Shown: piece after piece, positions 8,172-52,995 of the stretch | How positions within the stretch are numbered: the first letter of the stretch is position 1 | How the letters are laid out: the number at the start of each line of letters is the position of its first letter | Virus record (IMG/VR): IMGVR_UViG_3300008116_003012 | Span: 1 to 64,000 of that record | Length of the DNA stretch: 64,000 bases | Reading direction: 5' to 3' (one strand) | Source: a virus | Notes under the pieces: generated by a model | The model's input: the letters and a program-made list of their open reading frames with translations, nothing else | Databases searched by the model: none | What the model was told of the DNA's origin: nothing | Program-made: the position numbers and the translations under genes

Positions 8172-8653
8172 GAAACCTCTGATTTACCTTTAGTAATTGG
8201 AACAACATTGATATAACCAGCACCGCGTGTAGTATCCATGCCTTCTTCGGCTAGCATGCCTCTTACAATATCGCGAAACCAACGATCAACAATTTCTTCT
8301 TCTGGATCACCATCAAACCCGTATCCAGTTTGTTTCAATTGTAACACAAACTCTGCATTCCAGTCAAGCTCAAAAAAGCCGTTTCTAATATTATCTTTAT
8401 TGACGTGCGTATCTAAAACAGCTACATAAGGAATCCCTTGGGCAGAGGCACGTTCTTTTGGGCTAAGTTTCGCAGCCTCCTCTTGTTTTTTTGCTTGTTC
8501 AATTTCAGCATTTGCGGCAGCAATGGCCGCATCTGATTCAGCTTTAGCCATTGCCGCTGCCTTAACTGCTTCAACTGCTGCCGCGTCTGCTTCTTTTTTC
8601 AAGTCTTCAATTGCTTGAATACCTGTGATCTTTTTAAATAATTGTTTAATCAT
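8168..8653 (-). CDS. conserved phage protein with coiled-coil N-terminus
   Basis: A 161-aa protein. The start ATG at 8653 overlaps the queE stop (TAATG); a GTG 12 bases further up is possible but less likely. Residues 15-70 are an Ala, Glu and Lys-rich coiled coil. The C-terminal half (PYVAVLDTHVNKDNIRNGFF onward, with a GYGFDGDPEEEIVDRWFRDI motif) is the conserved part seen in aquatic T4-like phages. Function unknown; placed between queE and the 5'-nuclease. Confidence 0.75.
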   Translation of the reverse strand: MIKQLFKKITGIQAIEDLKKEADAAAVEAVKAAAMAKAESDAAIAAANAEIEQAKKQEEAAKLSPKERASAQGIPYVAVLDTHVNKDNIRNGFFELDWNAEFVLQLKQTGYGFDGDPEEEIVDRWFRDIVRGMLAEEGMDTTRGAGYINVVPITKGKSEVS

Positions 8654-9516
8654 TAGGTTCCCCACTCATTTTTAAATAACGGCACTTGTAATCTATCACT
8701 ATATCGCAATCCGTGTTTCATAGCTAAGTCTGCTACTGTGCGATTGTTTAGTGCATAAACACTTTCAACACCGCCTACTGGCATTAGATAAACATGTCCT
8801 TTAAAGCCTGCTTTACGGAATTCGAGTGTAGCAGTTACTGCGTCATCAAAATCATCTTCGGTAGCAATAACAAACTTCAAGTATGCTGTGCCAACTTGTT
8901 CATATTCACAAACTACTTCTGGACAGATAGCATCTTCCCACTTTTCGCCTGAACATGGAAGTTTGGCACTTACTGAGAATGTAATTTCTTTTACTGGCCC
9001 GCCGTTATGCCAATTTCTTATTTGCCATTGTTTTAAATACTTTTTAAATTCTGGCGATAACTGTTGAGTACCATTTGTTTCAAATGTAATCTCTGTTAAG
9101 CCTGCCATATTAGGGTGATCTAACAAATCAGGATATGCCCGTTGCCAACCTAGTAATGGTTCGCCACCTGTGATAACTAGATGCTCGTCTTTCCACTCAT
9201 TGAAGGGCAGTATCTCCATGATTCTGTCTGCAATGGCATCACTTTCCAACATTGGACTTAGATCTTTAAAACGAGGATCCCAACTTGCGTAACTATCACA
9301 ACCAGTTGACACAAGCGGGAGCTCTTTATAATCTTTAAATTCTGTAATACGTGCCGCAATAGCTTCGACTTCTTGGCTTGCTTCTCCTCGAGGCATACCA
9401 AATCCTTGACATTTAAAGTTACAACCAAATGTGCGTAGAAACACAGAAGGTACACCCATATAGCGTCCTTCACCCTGTATGCTGTAAAACAGCTCTGCAA
9501 TTTTAATTTTACTCAT
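8653..9516 (-). CDS. queE: 7-carboxy-7-deazaguanine synthase QueE (radical SAM)
   Basis: A 287-aa radical SAM protein that would convert 6-carboxy-tetrahydropterin to 7-carboxy-7-deazaguanine. Family features: YSIQGEGRYMGVPSVFLRT near the N-terminus, the cluster motif GCNFKC (Cys32, Cys36), LVITGGEPLL and ITFETNGTQ. The third cluster Cys is displaced: instead of a close CxxC, the next candidate is TGCDSYASWD (Cys73), after an insert of about 36 residues. With folE, the QueD-like gene and the DpdA-like gene it forms most of a 7-deazaguanine pathway. The stop overlaps the next gene as TAATG. Confidence 0.9.
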   Translation of the reverse strand: MSKIKIAELFYSIQGEGRYMGVPSVFLRTFGCNFKCQGFGMPRGEASQEVEAIAARITEFKDYKELPLVSTGCDSYASWDPRFKDLSPMLESDAIADRIMEILPFNEWKDEHLVITGGEPLLGWQRAYPDLLDHPNMAGLTEITFETNGTQQLSPEFKKYLKQWQIRNWHNGGPVKEITFSVSAKLPCSGEKWEDAICPEVVCEYEQVGTAYLKFVIATEDDFDDAVTATLEFRKAGFKGHVYLMPVGGVESVYALNNRTVADLAMKHGLRYSDRLQVPLFKNEWGT

Positions 9517-16865: not shown

Positions 16866-17112
16866 TCTTCTTACCTTCTTCGTATTGTTTAATTAAACGA
16901 ATTACTGGTTCCATACGTTCTTGAAATACATCAGGAGCAGCTTCAGAAACTCTAGTCATATCCCAAGTACTAGGAAAATGACGTAGAATACTGTGAGCTT
17001 CCCCTCGTACTGCTTTAGAAATACGAGGGTAAGCTTTTTTATCATAGGCAATAGATTCTAAGAATCTCTTAGCCCACATCACAGCACGATATCTTTCGTC
17101 AGGTAGCGTCAT
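16855..17112 (-). CDS. BPSL0761-like protein
   Basis: An 85-aa protein beginning MTLPDERYRAVMWAKRFLES, followed by RGEAHSILRHFPSTWDM. This pattern (PDER..A, then VR.EA...LRHFP) matches the BPSL0761 family of small proteobacterial proteins, known mainly from Burkholderiales. Function unknown. It overlaps the DpdA-like gene by 14 bases. It is one of the few hints to the host group. Confidence 0.65.
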   Translation of the reverse strand: MTLPDERYRAVMWAKRFLESIAYDKKAYPRISKAVRGEAHSILRHFPSTWDMTRVSEAAPDVFQERMEPVIRLIKQYEEGKKNEA

Positions 17113-18724
17113 TCTTTACAGCTTCTTCAAGTTCGTCAAGTTTGGATTCTTCTGCTTCAGTAAATTCTTCAGCATGTTCTAATTGTACAGGATCTTGTTC
17201 TACTATGTCAAACAGATTGGTAAAATTGGCAGATGCATTAGTCATCTTTTTACCAGTGTTTCCTCTTGTGCCAATAATAGTATCAAAATATCTACGATAG
17301 TCTTCTACAATAGCCAATGCCGAACCTTTGTCGTTGGCAGCAAAAATACTGTCAACAACATCCTTAAAGTAGATTCGACTGAACTTTTCTTGAACTAACA
17401 TGCTAGGAATAATGCCGGCATCGTATTGACGATTGGCTTCTTGCACAGCATTGATGTGACTCCAAACATTGTGACCCATTTGAATAGCATAGCTAAATGA
17501 ATCCCAACTTGTTCGGTTACTGACCTTGCCCAATTTGTTAACATCGGGCATCACAATCCAATCTGCAGGATTGTAAGGATCAGGATTCGTAACACCTGGC
17601 TTGACAGTGCCTGCACCGTAGATGCAAACGTCTTTCATCAGTACACCGTCCATTAAAGGACTTGTTTCAAAGTTTTTAAAGATACCGTCTTGTACTACTG
17701 CGTCTTGGAATAGTCTTGTGTCTGAGGCGTATTTTTTGTCATCAGCAGACGGCACCATTCGGTAGACCCATTTTTTACGATCTTCTGTTTCTGTTTGGAT
17801 GTAGATCTGTCCGTTTGCTGTTGCCAAAAACGGTGAGGCGCAGTCAAAAGATATGGTAAAGTTTTCATTATGGTACTTTCTTACAGCTCGTTGAATATCA
17901 GTTAATAAAGTTGCCCACTCTAACTTAGAGGTGCCCAGGAAGTGCATCCAATCTTGATGACCTTTTTCTAATAGGCCATCATATCGTAATTCCACAAGGC
18001 GTCTAAGCACCAAGTGTACATCGCACATATTTTGTCCGCCCATTGACCAGCCATTGAAAGCACGGTCTCCGTAGATTTTAGTATCACAGTATTTTTTCAT
18101 ACGGTCATACCAATCATCGGCATCGGGATGATTCTCACCTTGCAGAACGTTTAAGAACTTGCAGTTGCCATTGCGATTGTTAATGAACCAATCGTTATTG
18201 ATGTAAGTTCCTTGCACTGCTTCTGCGTAAGTAGTAATGCCGGTTGCTGCACGACCTGCCGGACTACGAGCAACCCATGCTGGAATATCCAACACCATGC
18301 CGTAGTCCATTAGTGTGTCCATCCAAGTAAGAACTTGTTCACGTTTCTTTTGTGCTTTAGGGCAATTAGGATCTTTCCAATCAGCAGGCCAAACACCTTT
18401 ACCAATTTGGAAACCTCCTGAGTCACCTAATACCCAACTTGTTGAACGATCACGATTACGGAACATGTCTTCGCTATCGTCTTGTTTAGTAAGATCTAAG
18501 TTAGCATGTCCTGCTGAATACAAACAATGATCGTAATAAAACGCACCCTTGTCTGGTTCTAAATAGTTTAACGATTCTACGCCACTTTTAAAGCTTGCCG
18601 GTATACGTGCAGGATCTACATAATTACCATATCGTTGTTTTCCGATAAAGGTACTGTAGAAACCTGACGTTGCTGGCAAGAAGTATGCGTAGTCGTTCTG
18701 TGCCGCTGTTAAATTACGATTCAA
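17099..18724 (-). CDS. dpdA: TGT-like transglycosylase, DpdA family (7-deazaguanine insertion)
   Basis: A 541-aa protein with tRNA-guanine transglycosylase motifs: DSGGFQ at 101-106 (catalytic Asp and base pocket), NVLQG at 192-196, and FDCASP at 293-298, which aligns with the nucleophile Asp motif FDCVxP of TGT. The usual TGT zinc site is not seen and the protein is longer, as for phage DpdA, which exchanges guanine for a 7-deazaguanine in DNA. The genes folE, queE and the QueD-like gene would make the base. Acidic C-terminal tail. A tRNA substrate cannot be excluded from sequence. Confidence 0.8.
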   Translation of the reverse strand: MNRNLTAAQNDYAYFLPATSGFYSTFIGKQRYGNYVDPARIPASFKSGVESLNYLEPDKGAFYYDHCLYSAGHANLDLTKQDDSEDMFRNRDRSTSWVLGDSGGFQIGKGVWPADWKDPNCPKAQKKREQVLTWMDTLMDYGMVLDIPAWVARSPAGRAATGITTYAEAVQGTYINNDWFINNRNGNCKFLNVLQGENHPDADDWYDRMKKYCDTKIYGDRAFNGWSMGGQNMCDVHLVLRRLVELRYDGLLEKGHQDWMHFLGTSKLEWATLLTDIQRAVRKYHNENFTISFDCASPFLATANGQIYIQTETEDRKKWVYRMVPSADDKKYASDTRLFQDAVVQDGIFKNFETSPLMDGVLMKDVCIYGAGTVKPGVTNPDPYNPADWIVMPDVNKLGKVSNRTSWDSFSYAIQMGHNVWSHINAVQEANRQYDAGIIPSMLVQEKFSRIYFKDVVDSIFAANDKGSALAIVEDYRRYFDTIIGTRGNTGKKMTNASANFTNLFDIVEQDPVQLEHAEEFTEAEESKLDELEEAVKNDAT

Positions 18725-29733: not shown

Positions 29734-30363
29734 TTAAGCTTTGATTACAGTTTCTATCCTACTAATAACACTACCTAAAAACATACGTACCATTGTAAGT
29801 GTTTTATCGTCTTTAACATAGAAATAACCGCCGCCCCAACTAAATCCCTTACCTAAGTCTTTTTTAATACGTTTAGTTAATCTTAACTTGTCATTACCAT
29901 CACTCCAATTTAAAAAGCTTTGATAATCTTGTCTAGTAGCGCCTATATGTATTTTGTACTTATAGTCTAGTGTTTTAACAATAACATTGTCTTTTTCTAG
30001 AACAGGACTAGTTCTATTAGGCAAACATATAAACTTGACTCTTTGATCATCTAATGATGCTAATTTTTCAATGGTTGTGCTGTCATTTGTATAAAGATTG
30101 ATTCTAGGACTTTCGATACGCAGTTCGTAATCTCCTAGAGTAGACATTAAATCTCTAAGTTTAAAACAATATTCTAAATCTTCTTTTGTTTTTATCTTAA
30201 CCCAAGAAGGAAAATGTCCTTCATTGAGTTTTTCTAAAACATAATCTAACTTATTGCCTCTAAACCAACCAGCAATAGGACAAACAAGTACAATTTTATA
30301 CTTGTACTTGTTTGCAAACAGACTTACTGTTTCTTTAATCAGAACTGATTTCGGTAGTTTCAT
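29734..30363 (-). CDS. conserved phage protein, function unknown
   Basis: A 209-aa protein with alternating beta strands and helices (YKIVLVCPIAGWFRGNKLDY near the start) and a C-terminal WSDGNDKLRLTKRIKKDLGK GFSW segment. It overlaps the clpA 3' end by 29 bases. Homologues exist in aquatic T4-like phages without function. Confidence 0.7.
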   Translation of the reverse strand: MKLPKSVLIKETVSLFANKYKYKIVLVCPIAGWFRGNKLDYVLEKLNEGHFPSWVKIKTKEDLEYCFKLRDLMSTLGDYELRIESPRINLYTNDSTTIEKLASLDDQRVKFICLPNRTSPVLEKDNVIVKTLDYKYKIHIGATRQDYQSFLNWSDGNDKLRLTKRIKKDLGKGFSWGGGYFYVKDDKTLTMVRMFLGSVISRIETVIKA

Positions 30364-32599
30364 TCTGTACTATTGGTTTTGTAGCTTTAGTAACAGCAAC
30401 AATCATCAACTGATCTTTATCTAGTGTAATGTTAGCAGTGCCGCCATTCTTTAACTCACCAAACAACATCATTTTAGCAAGACTGCGTTTAATGTCTTTG
30501 TCAATAACACGTTGTAACGGACGAGCACCCATTTTAGGATCAAAGCCTTTGTCAATCAAGTAGTTAAGAGCTTCTTTGTTGATCTTGATCTTAACGCCTT
30601 TTTCTTTAACTTGGGCACGTAACTCATCAATAAACTTATCAACAACCTTAGTCATTGTTTCTTTAGTCAACTTGCTGAATGTAACAACAGCATCTAGTCG
30701 ATTACGGAACTCAGGAGCAAAGAATTTCTTTAATGCTGTGTCACTATAAGTAACTTCTTGTGTACCAAAACCGATCTTGTTCTTTTCAGCATCACTTGCA
30801 CCAGCATTGGTAGTAATGATTAAGATAATGTTACGGCAATCTGCTTGCTTTCCGTTTGAACCAGTGATAAAACCATTGTCCATCATTTGCAACAAGATAG
30901 TTGAAACGTCAGGATGGCTCTTTTCAATCTCGTCTAACAGCAATACACAATTCGGATGCTCTTGAATCTTAGTAATCAGTAAGCCTGCATTTTCTTCAAA
31001 GCCTACATAACCAGGAGGGCTACCGATTAGCTTGCTAACACTATGCTTCTCTTGATACTCACTCATATCAAAGCGCACAAGTTTAACACCCAAGTTCTTT
31101 GCCAAGCTCTTGGCAGTTTCAGTTTTACCTGTACCTGTTGGACCCATGAACACAAACGCACCAACTGGACGATTGTCAGGTTTCAATCCAGCACGGCTAA
31201 CAAGGATTTTGTCAACTACTTCTGTAATGGCAGCTTCTTGTCCATAAACTTCTGCCTTTAGCTGTGATTCAAGATTGTTTAATGTAGAACTTTCTTGTTC
31301 AGCAATAGTTTCTGCAGGCATGTTAACAACTTTAGCCAATTCATATTGAATCTCGCTTTCGCCTACTGTACGAGTTTCTACAATCTTTAAATTGAATCGA
31401 CTGCAAGCCAAGTCAATTAAGTCAATTGCTTTGTCAGGAAGCTTTTTATCGTTCTGATACTTAACGCTCAAGTCAATAGCTGCCTTAATAGCTTCGTCTT
31501 TAATCTTAACCTTATGATGTTCTTCGTAGTATTTCTTAATACCTTTAAGGATCTGGAAGCTCATTTCTTTGCTAGGCTCGTCAACAGTAATGCGTTGGAA
31601 CCTACGCATCAATGCACGATCTTTTTCAAAGTGTTTGCGATATTCTTCCCAGGTAGTTGAAGCAACTACTTTAATGTTGCCTTTGCTCAATGCAGGCTTC
31701 ATCATGTTAGCAAGGTCGTTAGCATTATTGTTAGCTGAACCAGCACCGCTAATCATATGTGCTTCGTCAATGAACAAGATAGTCTTACCTTTCTTGCCTA
31801 ATGCTTTCAACACCAACTTAAAACGTTCTTCGAAATCGCCGCGGTACTTAGATCCTGCAAGCATTGCACTAATGTCCAAGTTGAATACAGTGTAGTCTTT
31901 AAGGAAGTCCGGAACTGCACCTTGCACAATATTGTAAGCCAGACCTTCTGCAATTGCAGTCTTACCTACACCTGGATCACCTACAAGAATAACGTTGCTC
32001 TTGCTACGACGGCCCATTGCCAATGCTACATTCTCAAGTTCTTCTACACGACCGATAACTGGATCAATCTTGTTTTTCTTAACAGCTTCGTTAAGGTTAG
32101 TTGTAAAACTCTTTAGAGCACGATCACTTTGATTGTCACGCGGCTCTTCTTCTTGTTCTACAGTAGAGTCCATCTCGTTGTTGAGATAGTCTGCAAATTT
32201 GTCTTTATCAATGTTAGCTTGCTGAATGTAGTAAGCTGCAAAGCTACGTTTCTCACTCATCATAGCAAGGAATACATCAGTACTTTCAATACGTTGACGG
32301 CCATTAAACAGAACCTGTGTAAACGCACGATTGAGTACACGTTCTACAGTTTGTGTTTTACGAGGTTTAGCATCAGACTCACTAATAATATCGTCACATT
32401 TATTTTTTAAATAATGTTCTAGATTTTTCTTAATAAATTCCGGATCACTTCCGTACCCTTGAACGCATTTGGTAAAAGTTTCTTCGCATAGCATAGCAAA
32501 AAGCAAATGCTCCAAAGTCAAGTATTCGTGTTTAAGTTTCTTAGCAACATCGATTGCTTTTTCAAATACTAGTTGCAGTTCGTTACTTGGTTCTACCAT
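30335..32599 (-). CDS. clpA: ClpA-like AAA+ unfoldase
   Basis: A 754-aa Hsp100 protein of ClpA length (758 in E. coli). Clp_N repeats cover residues 1-140. AAA1 has GDPGVGKT (207-214) and LFIDEAH; AAA2 has GPTGTGKT (486-493) and LLLDEIEK. The ClpP-docking loop tripeptide is IGF at 609-611 (IGL in ClpA, IGF in ClpX), so it could hand substrates to host ClpP. No clpP or clpS is seen here. With the adjacent DnaJ it could redirect host proteolysis or refolding. Consensus promoter at 32624-32651. Confidence 0.92.
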   Translation of the reverse strand: MVEPSNELQLVFEKAIDVAKKLKHEYLTLEHLLFAMLCEETFTKCVQGYGSDPEFIKKNLEHYLKNKCDDIISESDAKPRKTQTVERVLNRAFTQVLFNGRQRIESTDVFLAMMSEKRSFAAYYIQQANIDKDKFADYLNNEMDSTVEQEEEPRDNQSDRALKSFTTNLNEAVKKNKIDPVIGRVEELENVALAMGRRSKSNVILVGDPGVGKTAIAEGLAYNIVQGAVPDFLKDYTVFNLDISAMLAGSKYRGDFEERFKLVLKALGKKGKTILFIDEAHMISGAGSANNNANDLANMMKPALSKGNIKVVASTTWEEYRKHFEKDRALMRRFQRITVDEPSKEMSFQILKGIKKYYEEHHKVKIKDEAIKAAIDLSVKYQNDKKLPDKAIDLIDLACSRFNLKIVETRTVGESEIQYELAKVVNMPAETIAEQESSTLNNLESQLKAEVYGQEAAITEVVDKILVSRAGLKPDNRPVGAFVFMGPTGTGKTETAKSLAKNLGVKLVRFDMSEYQEKHSVSKLIGSPPGYVGFEENAGLLITKIQEHPNCVLLLDEIEKSHPDVSTILLQMMDNGFITGSNGKQADCRNIILIITTNAGASDAEKNKIGFGTQEVTYSDTALKKFFAPEFRNRLDAVVTFSKLTKETMTKVVDKFIDELRAQVKEKGVKIKINKEALNYLIDKGFDPKMGARPLQRVIDKDIKRSLAKMMLFGELKNGGTANITLDKDQLMIVAVTKATKPIVQNETTEISSD

Positions 32600-32623
32600 A
32601 AATTTCCTCGTTGTAATTAATTT

Positions 32624-32651
32624 ATTATACAGTATTATTTTGATTTGTCAA
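32624..32651 (-). promoter_or_regulatory. consensus sigma70 promoter for clpA
   Basis: Exact TTGACA (32651-32646), 16 bases, exact TATAAT (32629-32624), minus strand. It overlaps the end of dnaJ. An AGGAAA ribosome binding site lies before the clpA ATG. Confidence 0.8.
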
Positions 32652-33474
32652 TTAGTTCGGCGTAGAGTTCTTCAAATTTAATTTTAAGATCTGGATCAGT
32701 TAAAACAGGAATATCAATACCCACTATAATAATAAGATTTCCAGACTGTCCTCTTAGGTTAGTAAATCCTAAATTGCTACTGACATATTCGGTACCATGT
32801 TGAACACCGGGCCGAATATTAAATCTAATCCCAGTGCCATTTAAATGATTAACAATTTTAGTACATCCAGTCATTGCTTCAATTGGATTAATAACACAAT
32901 AGGCAATTAAATCATTTCCTCTACGGTCAAACTCTTGACTACGTTGTACCATAACAGTTACATTAAGATCTCCCCGCGGCAAATTAGGTGAACTGTCGTC
33001 CCCCATGCCTTGATATCTAATAACTTGTCCTGATTCTACTCCTGCAGGAACTTGTATTATAACTGTTTGTTTTTTACCATTAGGCAATTGATAGCTTGCT
33101 TCTAAATCCGCTCCGAGATAACTTTGTTTAAAGTTAACGTTTACTCTAATGTTTAGATCTCTATTTTTTCTTCTGTTAGGTTGTTGTGTTTGCCTAAAGA
33201 ATTGTTCAAACGGATTTCCGCCGAACATAGAACTTACATCATGCCATCCTTGTCCGCTACCTTGTGTAAATGGATCAAAGCTGTGTTGCGGAGAATCGTA
33301 TTGTGCTCTTTTAACAGGATCACTTAGTGTGTCATATGCCTGTGCAATGGACTGAAAAGTTGCAGTATCTCCTCCTTTGTCAGGATGATGCTTTGTTGCT
33401 AACTTTCTATAGGCCTTTTTGATTTCGTCCTGACTTGCAGTTTTTGAAACACCTAACGTTTGATAATGATCCAT
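32635..33474 (-). CDS. dnaJ: DnaJ/CbpA-type co-chaperone
   Basis: A 279-aa J-domain protein. Residues 1-65 form the J domain with HPD at 30-32 (KHHPDKGGD). A short Gly/Phe-containing part follows, then C-terminal substrate-binding domains ([33 protein letters not shown]). There is no CxxCxGxG zinc region, so it is of type II (CbpA-like). It would recruit host DnaK, a common need for phage replication or assembly. No clear Shine-Dalgarno; own consensus promoter 23 bases upstream. Confidence 0.9.
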
Positions 33475-37877: not shown

Positions 37878-37891
37878 AATGACTTCCACAA

Positions 37892-37920
37892 TTGTTACAG
37901 TTATTTATCTAGCCTAAAAT
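37892..37920 (+). promoter_or_regulatory. sigma70-type promoter for phoH
   Basis: TTGTTA, 17 bases, TAAAAT on the plus strand, about 115 bases before the phoH ATG, giving a leader of about 109 bases. Confidence 0.45.
37900..37909 (-). promoter_or_regulatory. T4-like late promoter motif
   Basis: GATAAATAAC on the minus strand, 23 bases upstream of the 37311-37877 ATG. Overlaps the rightward phoH promoter. Confidence 0.45.
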
Positions 37921-37965
37921 GATATCTTATGTTATTACTTTAGCCCAAAAGAACTAAGTAATAGT

Positions 37966-38030
37966 GTAGGACCTCTGTAGTTACTGGGCGGTCACTACAT
38001 TGTCCTACTTTACTTTTAAAAAGTGGGAGA
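37966..38030 (+). promoter_or_regulatory. structured phoH leader, possible RNA switch
   Basis: Structure A: GTAGGAC (37966-37972) pairs with GTCCTAC (38002-38008), with an inner stem TGTAGT/ACTACA (37976-37981, 37994-37999) and a 12-base loop. Structure B: CCTACTTT (38004-38011) pairs with AAAGTGGG (38020-38027), covering the ribosome binding site GGGAG. CCTAC is shared, so A and B exclude each other. A would free translation, B would block it. Ligand or trigger unknown. Confidence 0.55.
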
Positions 38031-38035
38031 ACTGA

Positions 38036-38755
38036 ATGAGTAAAAACCGCGTAAAAAAACGTTTTACTTCAAATGTCAATGTAATTGACTTTCAAAACTA
38101 TGCACCTCAAAAGAAGCATAAAGTAACACTATTGCCTCGCAATAAAAACCAAGAAACTTACCTACAAAAACTACAAGATGATAAAAAAAGCATTGTCTTT
38201 GCTATCGGCCCTGCTGGTACGGGTAAAACAATCATGGCTGTTATGCATGGCATTAAATTACTTCAAGAAGGCATTATTGAAAAAATTATAGTGACAAGAC
38301 CCGCCGTTTCCGTTGATGAAGATTTAGGATTCTTGCCAGGTACGCTTAATGAAAAGATGGCACCTTGGACAAGACCTATTTTTGATGTTTTAGGAGAATA
38401 CTATCAAACTAAAGAGATAGCAGCCATGCTAGAAGATGGAATTATCGAAATAAGCCCACTTGCATATATGCGCGGCCGTACGTTTAAAAATGCGTACATT
38501 ATTGCAGACGAAATGCAAAACGCCACGCAGAATCAAATGAAAATGTTATTAACCCGTCTTGGAGAAAATTCTAAGATGGTAGTTACAGGAGATTTAGCTC
38601 AAGCAGATAGATTAAAAGACAATGGTTTGATTGATTTTATTACTCGAGTCGAAGACAGGAGATATCAACATATTGATGTTGCTAGATTTGATCATAAAGA
38701 TATTGAACGACACAAAGCAGTTGCCGAAGTTTTAAAAATTTACGGCGATGAATAA
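38036..38755 (+). CDS. phoH: PhoH-like ATPase
   Basis: A 239-aa PhoH family P-loop protein. Walker A is GPAGTGKT (58-65), Walker B region IIADEMQN (155-162), and the segment TRPAVSVDEDLGFLPG is diagnostic. phoH is frequent in aquatic phages; it is a putative ATPase/helicase of RNA or stress metabolism. Unlike its neighbours it lies on the plus strand with its own promoter, structured leader and terminator. GGGAG lies six bases upstream of the ATG. Confidence 0.93.
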   Translation: MSKNRVKKRFTSNVNVIDFQNYAPQKKHKVTLLPRNKNQETYLQKLQDDKKSIVFAIGPAGTGKTIMAVMHGIKLLQEGIIEKIIVTRPAVSVDEDLGFLPGTLNEKMAPWTRPIFDVLGEYYQTKEIAAMLEDGIIEISPLAYMRGRTFKNAYIIADEMQNATQNQMKMLLTRLGENSKMVVTGDLAQADRLKDNGLIDFITRVEDRRYQHIDVARFDHKDIERHKAVAEVLKIYGDE

Positions 38756-41450: not shown

Positions 41451-41885
41451 TTACTTAGTACCAGTACTGCCCATACCACCACTGCCCCGGGCAGTATCAG
41501 ATAGTTCATCTGCTAGAATGAGTTGAACTTGAGGAACTGGAACGATCATTGCTTGTGCAATGCGCTCGCCTGCGGAAACATGCACAGCTGACGATCCGTC
41601 GTTGTGCATCTTAACCATTACTTCGCCGCGATAGTCACTGTCAATGACTCCAGTACCATTGGCTAAACGAATACCATTTTTAAAGCCGTGTCCACTTCGG
41701 CTGTAAACCATCATTACATAGCCTTCTGGGATTTCAAAAGCTAATCCTGTTCGAAGAGCAACGTGCTCGCGTCCAGGAGTGATTGTTACATCATTAACAC
41801 ACACTAGATCAAAACAGGCCGCGCCTGCGGTTGCGTACTGCGGCAATACCGCATTATCATTTAATTTCTTAACTCTAACTTGCAT
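41451..41885 (-). CDS. dut: dUTPase
   Basis: A 144-aa trimeric-type dUTP pyrophosphatase that makes dUMP for ThyX and keeps uracil out of DNA. All five motifs are visible: AGAACFDL, YSRSGHG, GTGVIDSDYRGE, RIAQAMIVP and the C-terminal RGSGGMGSTG. Normal length. Last gene before a strong terminator. Confidence 0.95.
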   Translation of the reverse strand: MQVRVKKLNDNAVLPQYATAGAACFDLVCVNDVTITPGREHVALRTGLAFEIPEGYVMMVYSRSGHGFKNGIRLANGTGVIDSDYRGEVMVKMHNDGSSAVHVSAGERIAQAMIVPVPQVQLILADELSDTARGSGGMGSTGTK

Positions 41886-42268
41886 TACATGAAGTCCTCT
41901 GGTCTGGATGTTATTGGTTTACTAGTGTCGTGTTCTTGTCCAATGTAAAAATCATTAGGCCTTTCGGCTGCGGTACACATGACGCTAATATTTTCTACTC
42001 GACGGATAAGAATTTCTTTACCATCTTCTCTCACAGTAACACCTCTAGTCCATCGACCGTGTTCTACAAGAATCCATTCGCCTACTTTAACATCTTTTTG
42101 TGTAGGGCCAACAGCCCAAACACGGCACCAACGAGGTTTAACTCCGTGTGCCTTGCCATCATCACTTTGAACAATGATTCCTGAAGCAGTCTTCATTTCA
42201 TCAAAGCTCATGTCAGTAACTAAGATATTATCGTTTAAAGGCCTAATTTTTCCTTCAACTATATTCAT
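41885..42268 (-). CDS. 31: GroES/gp31-like co-chaperonin
   Basis: A 127-aa protein with the Cpn10 fold pattern: KIRPLNDNILVTDM at the start, an apical mobile-loop region (FDEMKTASGIIVQ), then WCRVWAVGPTQKDVKVGEWI LVEHG and IRRVENISVM. GroES has about 97 aa; the extra C-terminal tail of about 25 residues (RPNDFYIGQEHD onward) is phage-specific. T4 gp31 replaces GroES for capsid protein folding; the same role is likely here with host GroEL. Confidence 0.8.
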   Translation of the reverse strand: MNIVEGKIRPLNDNILVTDMSFDEMKTASGIIVQSDDGKAHGVKPRWCRVWAVGPTQKDVKVGEWILVEHGRWTRGVTVREDGKEILIRRVENISVMCTAAERPNDFYIGQEHDTSKPITSRPEDFM

Positions 42269-48638: not shown

Positions 48639-50285
48639 TTATCTTCTACCAAAAGTTCTTTTTCTTGGCCATAGAATACCTGAACTAGGCCTAGTTTTAT
48701 AGTTTAATTTTGGATATACACTACCTTGACTTCTTCTTTCTTGATTGTAATAAAGAAATAAATTAGGAGCTCCCTGCAAACTAGTAATATCATCATACGT
48801 TCCGTTTGTATCTGTAATTTGATTTACTTTAGCATATTTTGTAACATATTCTAACGCTTCTGCAGGAGTCATGTCAGGATAAATTTCTAATATACACGCA
48901 AGAACTCCGCAGACTTGCGGGCTTGCCATACTAGTTCCGCTGTATTTGTTTAAAAATCCAACGCCTCTAGGGTCGTTAATTCCGCCACTATTAGTTGAAC
49001 TAATAATATCTGTACCGGGCGCCCATATATCTATTCTAGGACCAGTATTGCTGTAGTCTGCTTTTAAATCTGTAGATTGAGAATCTATACTTCCTACACA
49101 AATGCTTCCTATTGCGTTACCTGGGCTGCTTCCTCTATGGTAATAGTCGATGTAGGGGGCTCCTGAAAAAATTATTGTAAAAGTATTATCATAATCTAAT
49201 CCGCCTGGTACATCTACTTTTGTAAAATCATTTGCAGCAGCAGAAACCATTATAATACCATCAGCAATAGCATCCTCTGCATCTGCATTTAGTGCAGGAT
49301 AATCTGCCGGCATATAAACCGTAGTATTAACAGCATCTATGCCATAGCTTTTTAATTCAGCATTTGTAAAAGGTCCATTAATAGTTGCACCCCTATAATT
49401 TATACTTGTTATAGGAAGTGATGTTTGATCAAGCGTGTATCCATATCCCCAACTGTGATTCATAATAGTTGGGTTACGTCTTCCTGTAGCTAAGTTTATA
49501 GGTTTAGAAGCATGAAATGCTCTAATGTAATCAAATAGAACTAACTCATCGAGTCCGTTAGGATTATTACTATAAGGGTTAATATTATAAATGTTTGCTT
49601 TTCTAGCCCATCCTTGGGTAATACCTGCAACAGTTCCTGCAACATGGCATCCGTGATTATTGTTGTTACCATCATAGGGGCTATAAACATATGATGTTGT
49701 TAACAATTGAGCAACGTCGTCATCAATTCCGGCAACAGTCGGTGTAAGAGTATGCCAATCTAATTGTATTACTCTGCTGCCTCCAGTTCCGTCAGGATTA
49801 ACTGCAAACTCAGAATGGTCTGGATTTATATGACCGTCAACAATTATTACATCAACATTTCGTCCTTCTTCGTTTACTGTAATAGTTGCTGTTTGATTTA
49901 CAACGTTATCGCTACCCCAATTTTCGATTTGCTGCCCTTCTAATACTCTAAGCAGTCCCCAGTTGATGTGTGTAGCACTAGTAACACTAGATTTATTCCA
50001 TTCTGCACTAGTTTGGGTCCAGTAAGGTCGGACTGTTAATCCTAATTCTTTAGGAAGTAAAGACACTGCTACGATTCTAGGATCTTTTCTTAATGATTCA
50101 GCTTCTTCTGCAGTCAACAAGTAATGAGTATTTCTACTTAAAGGTCTTCGCAGTTGACAATCAACTGCACGTTCTGGCATGCAGTTATAAAGAGTAGAAC
50201 GCAGAGTTTCCATATCTTTATAAAATTCAGATAGATCATCTCTATTTTTTAGAGTTATAATATACTCTTTTAGCTGATCATCCAT
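48639..50285 (-). CDS. subtilisin-like serine protease, tail-associated
   Basis: A 548-aa S8 protease with an intact triad: Asp150 (DVIIVDGHINPDHSEF), His211 (NNHGCHVAGTVAG) and Ser452 (SGTSMASPQVCG); oxyanion Asn352 in AAND. Residues 1-80 resemble a propeptide-like domain (EYIITLKNRDDLSEFYKDME). The C-terminus ends RPSSGILWPRKR. No signal peptide, so delivery by the virion tail is likely. It is paralogous to 50287-52995 directly upstream. Role could be processing of tail proteins or attack on host surface proteins. Confidence 0.85.
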   Translation of the reverse strand: MDDQLKEYIITLKNRDDLSEFYKDMETLRSTLYNCMPERAVDCQLRRPLSRNTHYLLTAEEAESLRKDPRIVAVSLLPKELGLTVRPYWTQTSAEWNKSSVTSATHINWGLLRVLEGQQIENWGSDNVVNQTATITVNEEGRNVDVIIVDGHINPDHSEFAVNPDGTGGSRVIQLDWHTLTPTVAGIDDDVAQLLTTSYVYSPYDGNNNNHGCHVAGTVAGITQGWARKANIYNINPYSNNPNGLDELVLFDYIRAFHASKPINLATGRRNPTIMNHSWGYGYTLDQTSLPITSINYRGATINGPFTNAELKSYGIDAVNTTVYMPADYPALNADAEDAIADGIIMVSAAANDFTKVDVPGGLDYDNTFTIIFSGAPYIDYYHRGSSPGNAIGSICVGSIDSQSTDLKADYSNTGPRIDIWAPGTDIISSTNSGGINDPRGVGFLNKYSGTSMASPQVCGVLACILEIYPDMTPAEALEYVTKYAKVNQITDTNGTYDDITSLQGAPNLFLYYNQERRSQGSVYPKLNYKTRPSSGILWPRKRTFGRR

Positions 50286-50286
50286 A

Positions 50287-52995
50287 TTATTTCTTTTTAA
50301 TCAGTGGACGAGGATACATTAAGCCAGAATCTGGTCTAATATAACGAACATTTTTCGGAATTAACACTCCGTTATCTGGTCTCTCTTTTCTATAGTAAGC
50401 AAATCTGTTGGCACTTCCTTGCAAGCTAGTGTTATCATCGTAACTTCCTCCAGTGTCAAGTAAGTTTGATCTTGCAAATTTAGTTACAAATGCTTTTGCT
50501 TCAGCTGGTGTCATATTAGGATAAGCTTCTAACGCTAGGGCAAGTATTCCTGTAACTTGAGCACAGGCCATACTAGTACCACTACGTTTTTGATATAAGT
50601 ATCCTTTATGGATTTCTCCAGTTACTGAAGTTGTTGTTACATCAGTACCAGTTTGTGCATAGCTGAACGTTGTTTGATCTACTACAGTAACCTGTACATT
50701 GCTAACATTAAATTGTGTAATTACATTAAATTCCGTAGTAACAATATCGCCAGTTGTTAAATTATGATCTGCAGATGTTACTATTGTAACAACACCGCTA
50801 GATCTAGCAGCAGATTGAGCAGTAGTTATCAATGCATCCCCAACAATGTCAGCAGCTATTCCAGTATTATCATATACTGCTGAAGTAATATTTCTTCCAG
50901 GAGCATAGATATCTACTCTAGGACCAGTATTACTAGTTTGCGCTTTAGTTTCAGTGCTGGCACTGTCTATTGAACCTACACAAATTGCATCAGGATGACT
51001 CGCTGCTGGACTACTACCTCTTTGGTAATAAAGAGGCAATCCATTATCAATAACATAATTGTCGTAATCTAACCCGCCTTGGTTATCAATTTTAAGACCT
51101 GCATTACCTGCACTACCTACAAATATAACTCCTGCATCTATGGTATCTGAAATGTCAGCATCTATAGCAGTGCTTCTAATAGGACTAGGTCCTAATTCGT
51201 TTATACTTAATCCTCTACTGAGAATTTCAAAATCTGTAAACTCTCCTCTGTAGTTAGCATTTGATACAATTTGTAATTCAAAAGTATTAGGAGTAGCTTC
51301 AAAGAATTTCATTTCCCAAACGGTTGTAGGAGTAGTTTCGTAGGTAGTGCTGTAAGCACCTTCGTATCCTTCCCAACGTACTATAAATGTTCTACTACCT
51401 GTAGTACCAAAAGTTCCAGTCCATAAATTTTCGCAACTTCTATCGCCTGTAGAAACAAATATTTTTCTAATAGCAGGATTAGTAGCACCAAACGAAAGTG
51501 CATTACTTGGGCCGCCGAATGTAATGTGACTGTTAGAACTTACATAAACTGATCCAGTATTATATGTCTGGGTGCAGTAACTAATACCGAACGGTATTGA
51601 AAGTTGCCAGTATGCTTCATCATTTTCACTAACACTAACTCCGGAATTAACAAATGTAGGGGCAACTTGTGTAAGGCCAGTTCTTCCATTAGGAGAATAA
51701 GTAGTAGTTGTTACAGTTCCAGTTTCAATACCCGTTGTCTGGATCGTACAAGCTGTACCAGGTGCAACACTAGACAATCCGGCAATTAATGCATTTGATG
51801 TAAAAATTCCACTAATGCCTGTATCTACAGGACTAGTTGTAGGAGTAATGTCAGCTCCTCTGTAATTAATTTTTGGAAAATCGTAACTGGATGTTCCTGT
51901 ATAGGGATTTCTCCTAGTGTATAAAGTTATACCTAAGCCCCAACTGTTATTAACAATTGTTGGATTTTTTCTTCCAGTCTCTGGATTGATCGATTTGTTA
52001 TTATGAAATTCTTTTATATAGTTAAAAATTAAATCATTAGGTATAGACGTTTCTGCATCTACTCCTATTGCATTATGTTTTAAGTTATATATGTTTGCAT
52101 CTCTAGCCCAACCTTGTGTGTTGCCCGCAGCAATAGCTGCTACGTGAGTTGCGTGATTATTTTCTTGAGTGAACTCAGTGTATTGGTAAACACCTCTCCA
52201 AAATCCTTCTCCGGTAGTTCTTGTTACGTTACCTGAAGTGACACTGATATAACTTATGGTGTTGACAGTAAGACCGTCTCCGCCGTTTCCTATTGATGTT
52301 ACTCCAACCGCAGTAACAGTTACACCTGTTGCTGTAAATGAGCTGTCTGTTGTGCATACAACATTGATAACAGCGCCAGGATTTATATTGTGTGCAGTTT
52401 GAGTTGTTATAGTTGCTGTAGTTCCTGATCTTGAAATGTGCGTTATCACACAGCCAGTTCCTCTTACAGCAGCATCATGCTGACCAAACCAATCATACTG
52501 TACAAATCTTTCTCCAAATTCTGCATGATCTGGCCAAACAGTATCGTCAACTATAATTATGTCAACATTTTTACCAGTTGCATCTAAGGTTATATCTCTA
52601 GTTATAGTGCTGTTAAGAATTACATCAGAACCCCATTGAGCTTCGTTTTCAGTTACAAGGCTGCGATACAATCCCCAGTTTTTATTTCCTACTGAAATAT
52701 TGTCGCCCCTACTCCAATCACCAGTTTGGGTTGCATGTGGTTCTATTTTAATTGATGGGTCTTTTAATCTTAGTTCAACTGATTGAACTCTTTCGTCTTT
52801 AATTAATTCTCTAGCTTCATGCCTTGTGAGCAAATAATGCGTATTTCTACTTACAGGTCGCCTGTCAACACAAGGAATTGCCGCAGAAGGAATGAACGAT
52901 TTTGTTGTTCCTTCTGTTTCCATGTCTAGATAAAAATTTTCTAATTCATTGTAATTTTTTAATGTTACAATAAATTCTTGACGAAAGTCTGACAT
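50287..52995 (-). CDS. subtilisin-like serine protease with inserted beta domains
   Basis: A 902-aa S8 protease. Triad: Asp150 (DIIIVDDTVWPDHAEF), His281 (ENNHATHVAAIAAG), Ser808 (SGTSMACAQVTG). Compared with 48639-50285 it has three insertions: about 178-265 and 727-798, both of the module type (TATITTQTAHNINPGAVINV; VTIVTSADHNLTTGDIVTTE), and a larger central beta domain after His (YWQLSIPFGISYCTQTYNTG). Shares the N-terminal domain and the end RPDSGLMYPRP. Insertions leave the catalytic core intact. Confidence 0.85.
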   Translation of the reverse strand: MSDFRQEFIVTLKNYNELENFYLDMETEGTTKSFIPSAAIPCVDRRPVSRNTHYLLTRHEARELIKDERVQSVELRLKDPSIKIEPHATQTGDWSRGDNISVGNKNWGLYRSLVTENEAQWGSDVILNSTITRDITLDATGKNVDIIIVDDTVWPDHAEFGERFVQYDWFGQHDAAVRGTGCVITHISRSGTTATITTQTAHNINPGAVINVVCTTDSSFTATGVTVTAVGVTSIGNGGDGLTVNTISYISVTSGNVTRTTGEGFWRGVYQYTEFTQENNHATHVAAIAAGNTQGWARDANIYNLKHNAIGVDAETSIPNDLIFNYIKEFHNNKSINPETGRKNPTIVNNSWGLGITLYTRRNPYTGTSSYDFPKINYRGADITPTTSPVDTGISGIFTSNALIAGLSSVAPGTACTIQTTGIETGTVTTTTYSPNGRTGLTQVAPTFVNSGVSVSENDEAYWQLSIPFGISYCTQTYNTGSVYVSSNSHITFGGPSNALSFGATNPAIRKIFVSTGDRSCENLWTGTFGTTGSRTFIVRWEGYEGAYSTTYETTPTTVWEMKFFEATPNTFELQIVSNANYRGEFTDFEILSRGLSINELGPSPIRSTAIDADISDTIDAGVIFVGSAGNAGLKIDNQGGLDYDNYVIDNGLPLYYQRGSSPAASHPDAICVGSIDSASTETKAQTSNTGPRVDIYAPGRNITSAVYDNTGIAADIVGDALITTAQSAARSSGVVTIVTSADHNLTTGDIVTTEFNVITQFNVSNVQVTVVDQTTFSYAQTGTDVTTTSVTGEIHKGYLYQKRSGTSMACAQVTGILALALEAYPNMTPAEAKAFVTKFARSNLLDTGGSYDDNTSLQGSANRFAYYRKERPDNGVLIPKNVRYIRPDSGLMYPRPLIKKK

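Follow-up and report, generated by a model that had tools for sequence, protein, structure and literature searches.

The window analyzed here, a stretch of 64,000 nucleotides from the 119,006-base record of an uncultivated virus, carries a phoH gene that is flanked by minus-strand genes on both sides and is the lone plus-strand gene there. With this arrangement, the phoH message should start in the short upstream gap, in which we found a T4-late-promoter-like box followed by a leader that can adopt two alternative folds (states A and B), leaving the Shine-Dalgarno (SD) sequence free or hidden, respectively. The features of the region are:

37955..37963, plus strand: T4-late-promoter-like box TAAGTAATA, read from the sequence (TAAATA in most relatives)
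37965..38038, plus strand: whole two-state element, the phoH leader RNA including the start codon (74 nt), from a covariance model match
37965..37973, plus strand: 5' arm TGTAGGACC, pairing through 37966-37972 with 38002-38008 in state A and with 37990-37999 in state B
37976..37981, plus strand: inner 5' arm TGTAGT, paired in state A
37983..37985, plus strand: apical 5' strand ACT, with 37990-37992 as its partner in state A
37990..37999, plus strand: inner 3' arm GGTCACTACA, partner of the inner 5' arm in state A and of the 5' arm in state B
38002..38011, plus strand: switch strand GTCCTACTTT, partner of the 5' arm in state A and of the SD in state B
38020..38028, plus strand: SD strand AAAGTGGGA, free in state A and hidden in state B, with a UA/AU exchange in six relatives
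38036..38755, plus strand: phoH coding sequence (239 aa), from the open reading frame list, matching Pfam PhoH (PF02562; E=9e-74)

The box, in the form TAAATA or TAAGTA, was present in 310 of 316 phoH leaders of relatives, a count that is slightly biased because the choice of start codon favored starts with a box. Its distance to the first G of the 5' arm was exactly 5 nt in 127 of 150 distinct scored leaders, and this constant spacing suggests a probable transcript start at the base of the hairpin. Further upstream, the gap at 37880-37955 contained a second block conserved in relatives (around AAATCATA..TAT.A..TTTA), and most relatives had in this gap a divergent late-type box (CTTATTTA) oriented toward the minus-strand gene; these elements may be further promoters.

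In state A, GTAGGAC (37966-37972) and its perfect complement GTCCTAC (38002-38008) form an outer helix of 7 bp, with an inner stem (TGTAGT, 37976-37981, with ACTACA, 37994-37999) and a short apical stem (ACT, 37983-37985, with GGT, 37990-37992), and the SD is unpaired. State B replaces every one of these helices: TGTAGGACC (37965-37973) pairs with GGTC (37990-37993) and CTACA (37995-37999) around one bulged base, and this 5' hairpin frees TCCTACTTT (38003-38011) to pair with AAAGTGGGA (38020-38028), which covers the SD. Both pairings proposed in the first-pass annotation, the GTAGG/CCTAC helix with its inner stem and the SD-covering helix, were thus found where it had placed them. Its two-state description captured state A and the SD half of state B, but overlooked the upstream half of B, and its suggestion that the apical loop TACTGGGCGGTC is a possible ligand or protein site is not supported, since the loop is mostly paired in A or B. 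When the window sequence was considered alone, the fold of a 121-nt segment was not significant (z -1.66; 12 of 200 shuffles folded at least as well), so significance was decided by comparison with relatives.

An IMG/VR scan with the window PhoH identified 80 close loci whose leaders carry the two-state layout, and a pattern scan added instances, of which those with promoter and leader context preceded phoH wherever the downstream sequence sufficed. The alignment of this freshwater clade comprised 95 leaders, 94 of them distinct. The first-pass annotation had named loss of both pairings in related phages as the outcome that would speak against it, and this check turned out in its favor: among the 94 distinct leaders, 98.9% of the cells of state A were paired, four of its pairs had both bases changed and its covariation score exceeded all 500 shuffles, and 97.1% of the cells of state B were paired, with both score and paired cells above 500 of 500 shuffles, the shuffle tests being inflated by the relatedness of the sequences. 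The SD helix of state B showed a UA to AU exchange in six leaders, and the pairing between switch strand and SD was kept as the SD flank changed (CATT/AATG, CTTT/AAAG). In one leader (L353), as read from the sequence, the bulge was shifted by one position and nine B pairs were still possible. The upstream helix of state B varied almost solely on one side, and was thus conserved rather than covarying within this clade.

The same region is an inverted repeat, as a DNA operator palindrome would be, and a terminator scan flagged 37986-38005 followed by TACTTTACTT, which would suit a transcription attenuator. However, the T-rich tail was not conserved among relatives (CATTCCCC in the L035 group), conservation reached into the SD, and RNA-type G-U pairs were tolerated in both folds. 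Hence, it appears very improbable that the element acts as an attenuator or operator instead of an RNA switch.

Outside the freshwater clade, the inner sequence was wholly replaced and the layout was retained. Distant PhoH loci differed in leader sequence (one example being TTGCAGG..CCTGCAA..CCCTGT..AGGAGG) but had the same promoter spacing and leaders of similar length. For 25 of these leaders, which make up a second, diverged clade, covariation above shuffles was seen in the state A helices; the state B pairs did not exceed shuffles. Thus, covariation in homologous leaders, which the annotation had proposed as a check, was observed for state A in both clades, but for state B it was limited to the one exchange in the SD helix.

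For alignment-free tests, 54 representatives of diverse phoH leaders were chosen. In the conditional randomization, hairpin A was fixed for each leader, its base pairs and unpaired bases were permuted, and the alternative fold was compared. The upstream hairpin beat dinucleotide shuffles (p<0.05) in 45 of 54 phoH leaders versus 4 of 25 control leaders, and given hairpin A, 25 of the 52 phoH leaders tested, but none of 22 other leaders, had an alternative fold better than chance (p<0.05); the contrast is indicative, as the controls (other leaders from the same contigs) were few and several were perhaps not real late leaders. An independent repeat of the conditional randomization gave 26 of 52 phoH leaders, and among mutually dissimilar leaders the result was 6 of 14 (Fisher 8e-7). 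In about half of the diverse phoH leaders the alternative fold was not individually significant, the closed pairing was weak in several marine leaders, and the layout was absent in the named phages vB_Pa-PAC2 (PA5oct group), Phosso and Atu_ph07, whose PhoH proteins were 52-56% identical.

The stronger signal of state A raises the question of whether hairpin A alone is functional, as a 5'-terminal stem-loop that shields the late phoH mRNA from 5'-end-dependent decay while keeping the SD clear, the closed fold being incidental. It would fit this explanation that only a few bases separate the hairpin from the probable transcript start, that support is strongest for A in every clade and that B covaries weakly. 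However, such a role would not account for the randomization result, in which roughly every second phoH leader, but not one of the 22 controls, had a better alternative fold than expected for a hairpin with its pairs and composition, nor for the survival of the switch strand/SD pairing through changes of the SD flank, and we regard it as unlikely. Judging from these comparisons, the leader is real and conserved, including in uncultivated lake and sea phages with changed sequence, and two folds that exclude each other and are similar in energy appear to have been kept in relatives, A strongly and B moderately.

With regard to energetics, all 85 evaluated leaders could form both folds, with close energies in most of them. 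The ensemble free energy of A minus that of B was on average +1.8 kcal/mol (sd 2.5) and reached +3.0 kcal/mol in the window, so the closed state is favored here, and the leader is presumably closed by default in this phage. Temperature had little predicted effect: in the thermodynamic model, the median probability of an unpaired SD core stayed at 0.00-0.03 from 5 to 45 C, and the energy difference between A and B was identical at 20 and 37 C. An RNA thermosensor opening as temperature rises or falls would have a precedent in phage lambda cIII mRNA, which has two conformations of similar energy and responds to temperature and RNase III. In both phage leaders two folds compete and one of them hides the ribosome site, but gene and sequence are unrelated. 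Thus, although an SD-hiding helix exists, the flat predicted response makes a thermosensor extremely improbable.

With increasing length of the window transcript, its minimum-energy fold changed from a B-type 5' hairpin (36-42 nt) to state A (44-64 nt) and then, once the SD had emerged at about 66 nt, to the closed state B. For refolding of the nascent hairpin into A, the rough barrier estimates had a median of 11.0 kcal/mol, and for the step from A to B a median of 14.2 kcal/mol. Such barriers would make both states long-lived and do not decide which state is entered first; by the same rough estimates, conversion of the nascent hairpin to A may lag behind synthesis of the SD. Metastable structures that time SD access have been described in the MS2 maturation-gene leader and in the type I toxin mRNAs aapA3 and hok (PMC6733600). 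As in those RNAs, successive alternative helices formed during transcription may decide SD exposure; unlike them, the phoH leader is short (about 75 nt), belongs to a late gene of a DNA phage, has near-degenerate folds and is not known to involve an antisense RNA or 3' processing. Structures of the initiation region are also found in T4 gene e, soc, 49 and I-TevI (PMC3014915), which share with the phoH leader a T4-type phage context and a late promoter adjoining an SD-hiding RNA structure. Late transcripts of gene e start from a promoter inside the structure and are therefore missing its 5' strand (PMC3014915), whereas the phoH box lies upstream of the whole structure and late transcripts would carry both folds.

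The layout also matches the expression platform of a translational riboswitch, in which a switch strand is common to an upstream helix and an anti-SD helix, and the inner domain, where a metabolite would bind to select A or B, was nearly invariant within the freshwater clade. However, no conserved aptamer was found: the invariant columns sit in A or B pairs, with the C of column 28 as the main exception, so the two pairings account for nearly all invariant bases and leave no separate conserved ligand domain. Other phages with the same layout have an entirely different inner sequence, a search of Rfam 15 at gathering and relaxed thresholds gave no useful family match for the window or nine relatives, and the motif occurs at one gene only. 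A metabolite riboswitch therefore seems quite improbable. Of the riboswitch or thermosensor layout put forward in the annotation, the SD-exposing versus SD-hiding architecture is supported, but ligand and temperature inputs are not supported by the use of the conserved bases in pairing, the Rfam result or the flat SD exposure. Nothing links the leader to the phosphate-related trigger that had also been suggested, and a role of PhoH in phosphate stress outside E. coli has been called controversial (PMC4360716).

Taken as a whole, the sequence evidence argues for the phoH leader being a bistable RNA of two-state architecture that gates translation, a reading to which we assign a probability of roughly 70%. 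Under this mechanism, transcription would start from the late promoter just upstream of the leader. When the leader is open (state A), the switch strand would be captured by the 5' arm and the SD left free, and the message would presumably be translated; in the closed state B, the inner segment would hold the 5' arm and the switch strand would cover the SD, presumably keeping the message silent. Switching might be brought about by folding kinetics or by a trans-acting factor; candidates for the latter are RNA-binding proteins or helicases of phage or host origin, perhaps including PhoH. Because the conserved bases are nearly all explained by the A and B pairings, there is little room for an aptamer, and in our judgement a trans-acting factor or folding kinetics is more likely than a small molecule.

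The distribution of the motif was also analyzed. Searching the 119 kb record with the covariance model, whose seed includes the window leader itself, returned this leader as the sole strong match (74.7 bits, E=1.1e-17). Each phage record carrying the motif had one strong copy, located at phoH, and other genes in the phage records searched had weak matches at most. A pattern search of bacterial genomes gave at least 117 stretches, none of those scanned lying upstream of phoH, and these matches were taken as chance. In the open-access literature, with subscription papers largely outside this search, we did not find a phoH leader RNA described, and phoH goes unmentioned in a 2010 catalog of candidate structured RNAs (PMC2864571).

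Many different phages carry phoH, which is used as a marker in studies of aquatic phage diversity, its role in phages being unsettled (PMC4360716). A dedicated and conserved translational switch, if true, would imply that the dose or timing of PhoH late in infection matters. A 2010 review of post-transcriptional control in T4 noted that no T4 riboswitch had been functionally characterized and hoped for candidates from T4-related genomes (PMC3014915); the phoH leaders form a family whose two alternative folds can be traced across heavily diverged sequences. A more far-reaching proposal, which we consider rather doubtful, is that they represent a phoH-specific family of bistable switches in uncultivated T4-related phages, in which the two-fold logic outlives sequence rewriting and which is autoregulatory, run by PhoH or another RNA-remodeling factor and not by a metabolite. 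In the Far-T4 group, phoH lies near structural genes (PMC4360716), and a resemblance of the leader-carrying phages to this group offers a lead.

Several other observations were made on PhoH and on the window. In three relatives (L184, L322 and L323), the PhoH reading frame contained a large, intein-like in-frame insertion after MRGR (591 aa in total in L323), and the leader switch was retained despite it; their close relatives L331 and L361 had an uninterrupted PhoH gene of 238-239 aa. Elsewhere in the window, all on the minus strand, chaperone genes (ClpB-like, DnaJ and the GroES-like Cpn10) were located at 30335-33474 and 41885-42268, and two adjacent open reading frames among tail-fiber-like genes (48639-52995) matched the subtilase family (Peptidase_S8). 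The regions 8653-9516 and 17099-18724 encode a radical-SAM protein (below the Pfam cut-off), which may be QueE-like, and a 541-aa open reading frame without a Pfam match, possibly a relative of tRNA-guanine transglycosylase. This pair raises the possibility of a 7-deazaguanine modification of the phage DNA.
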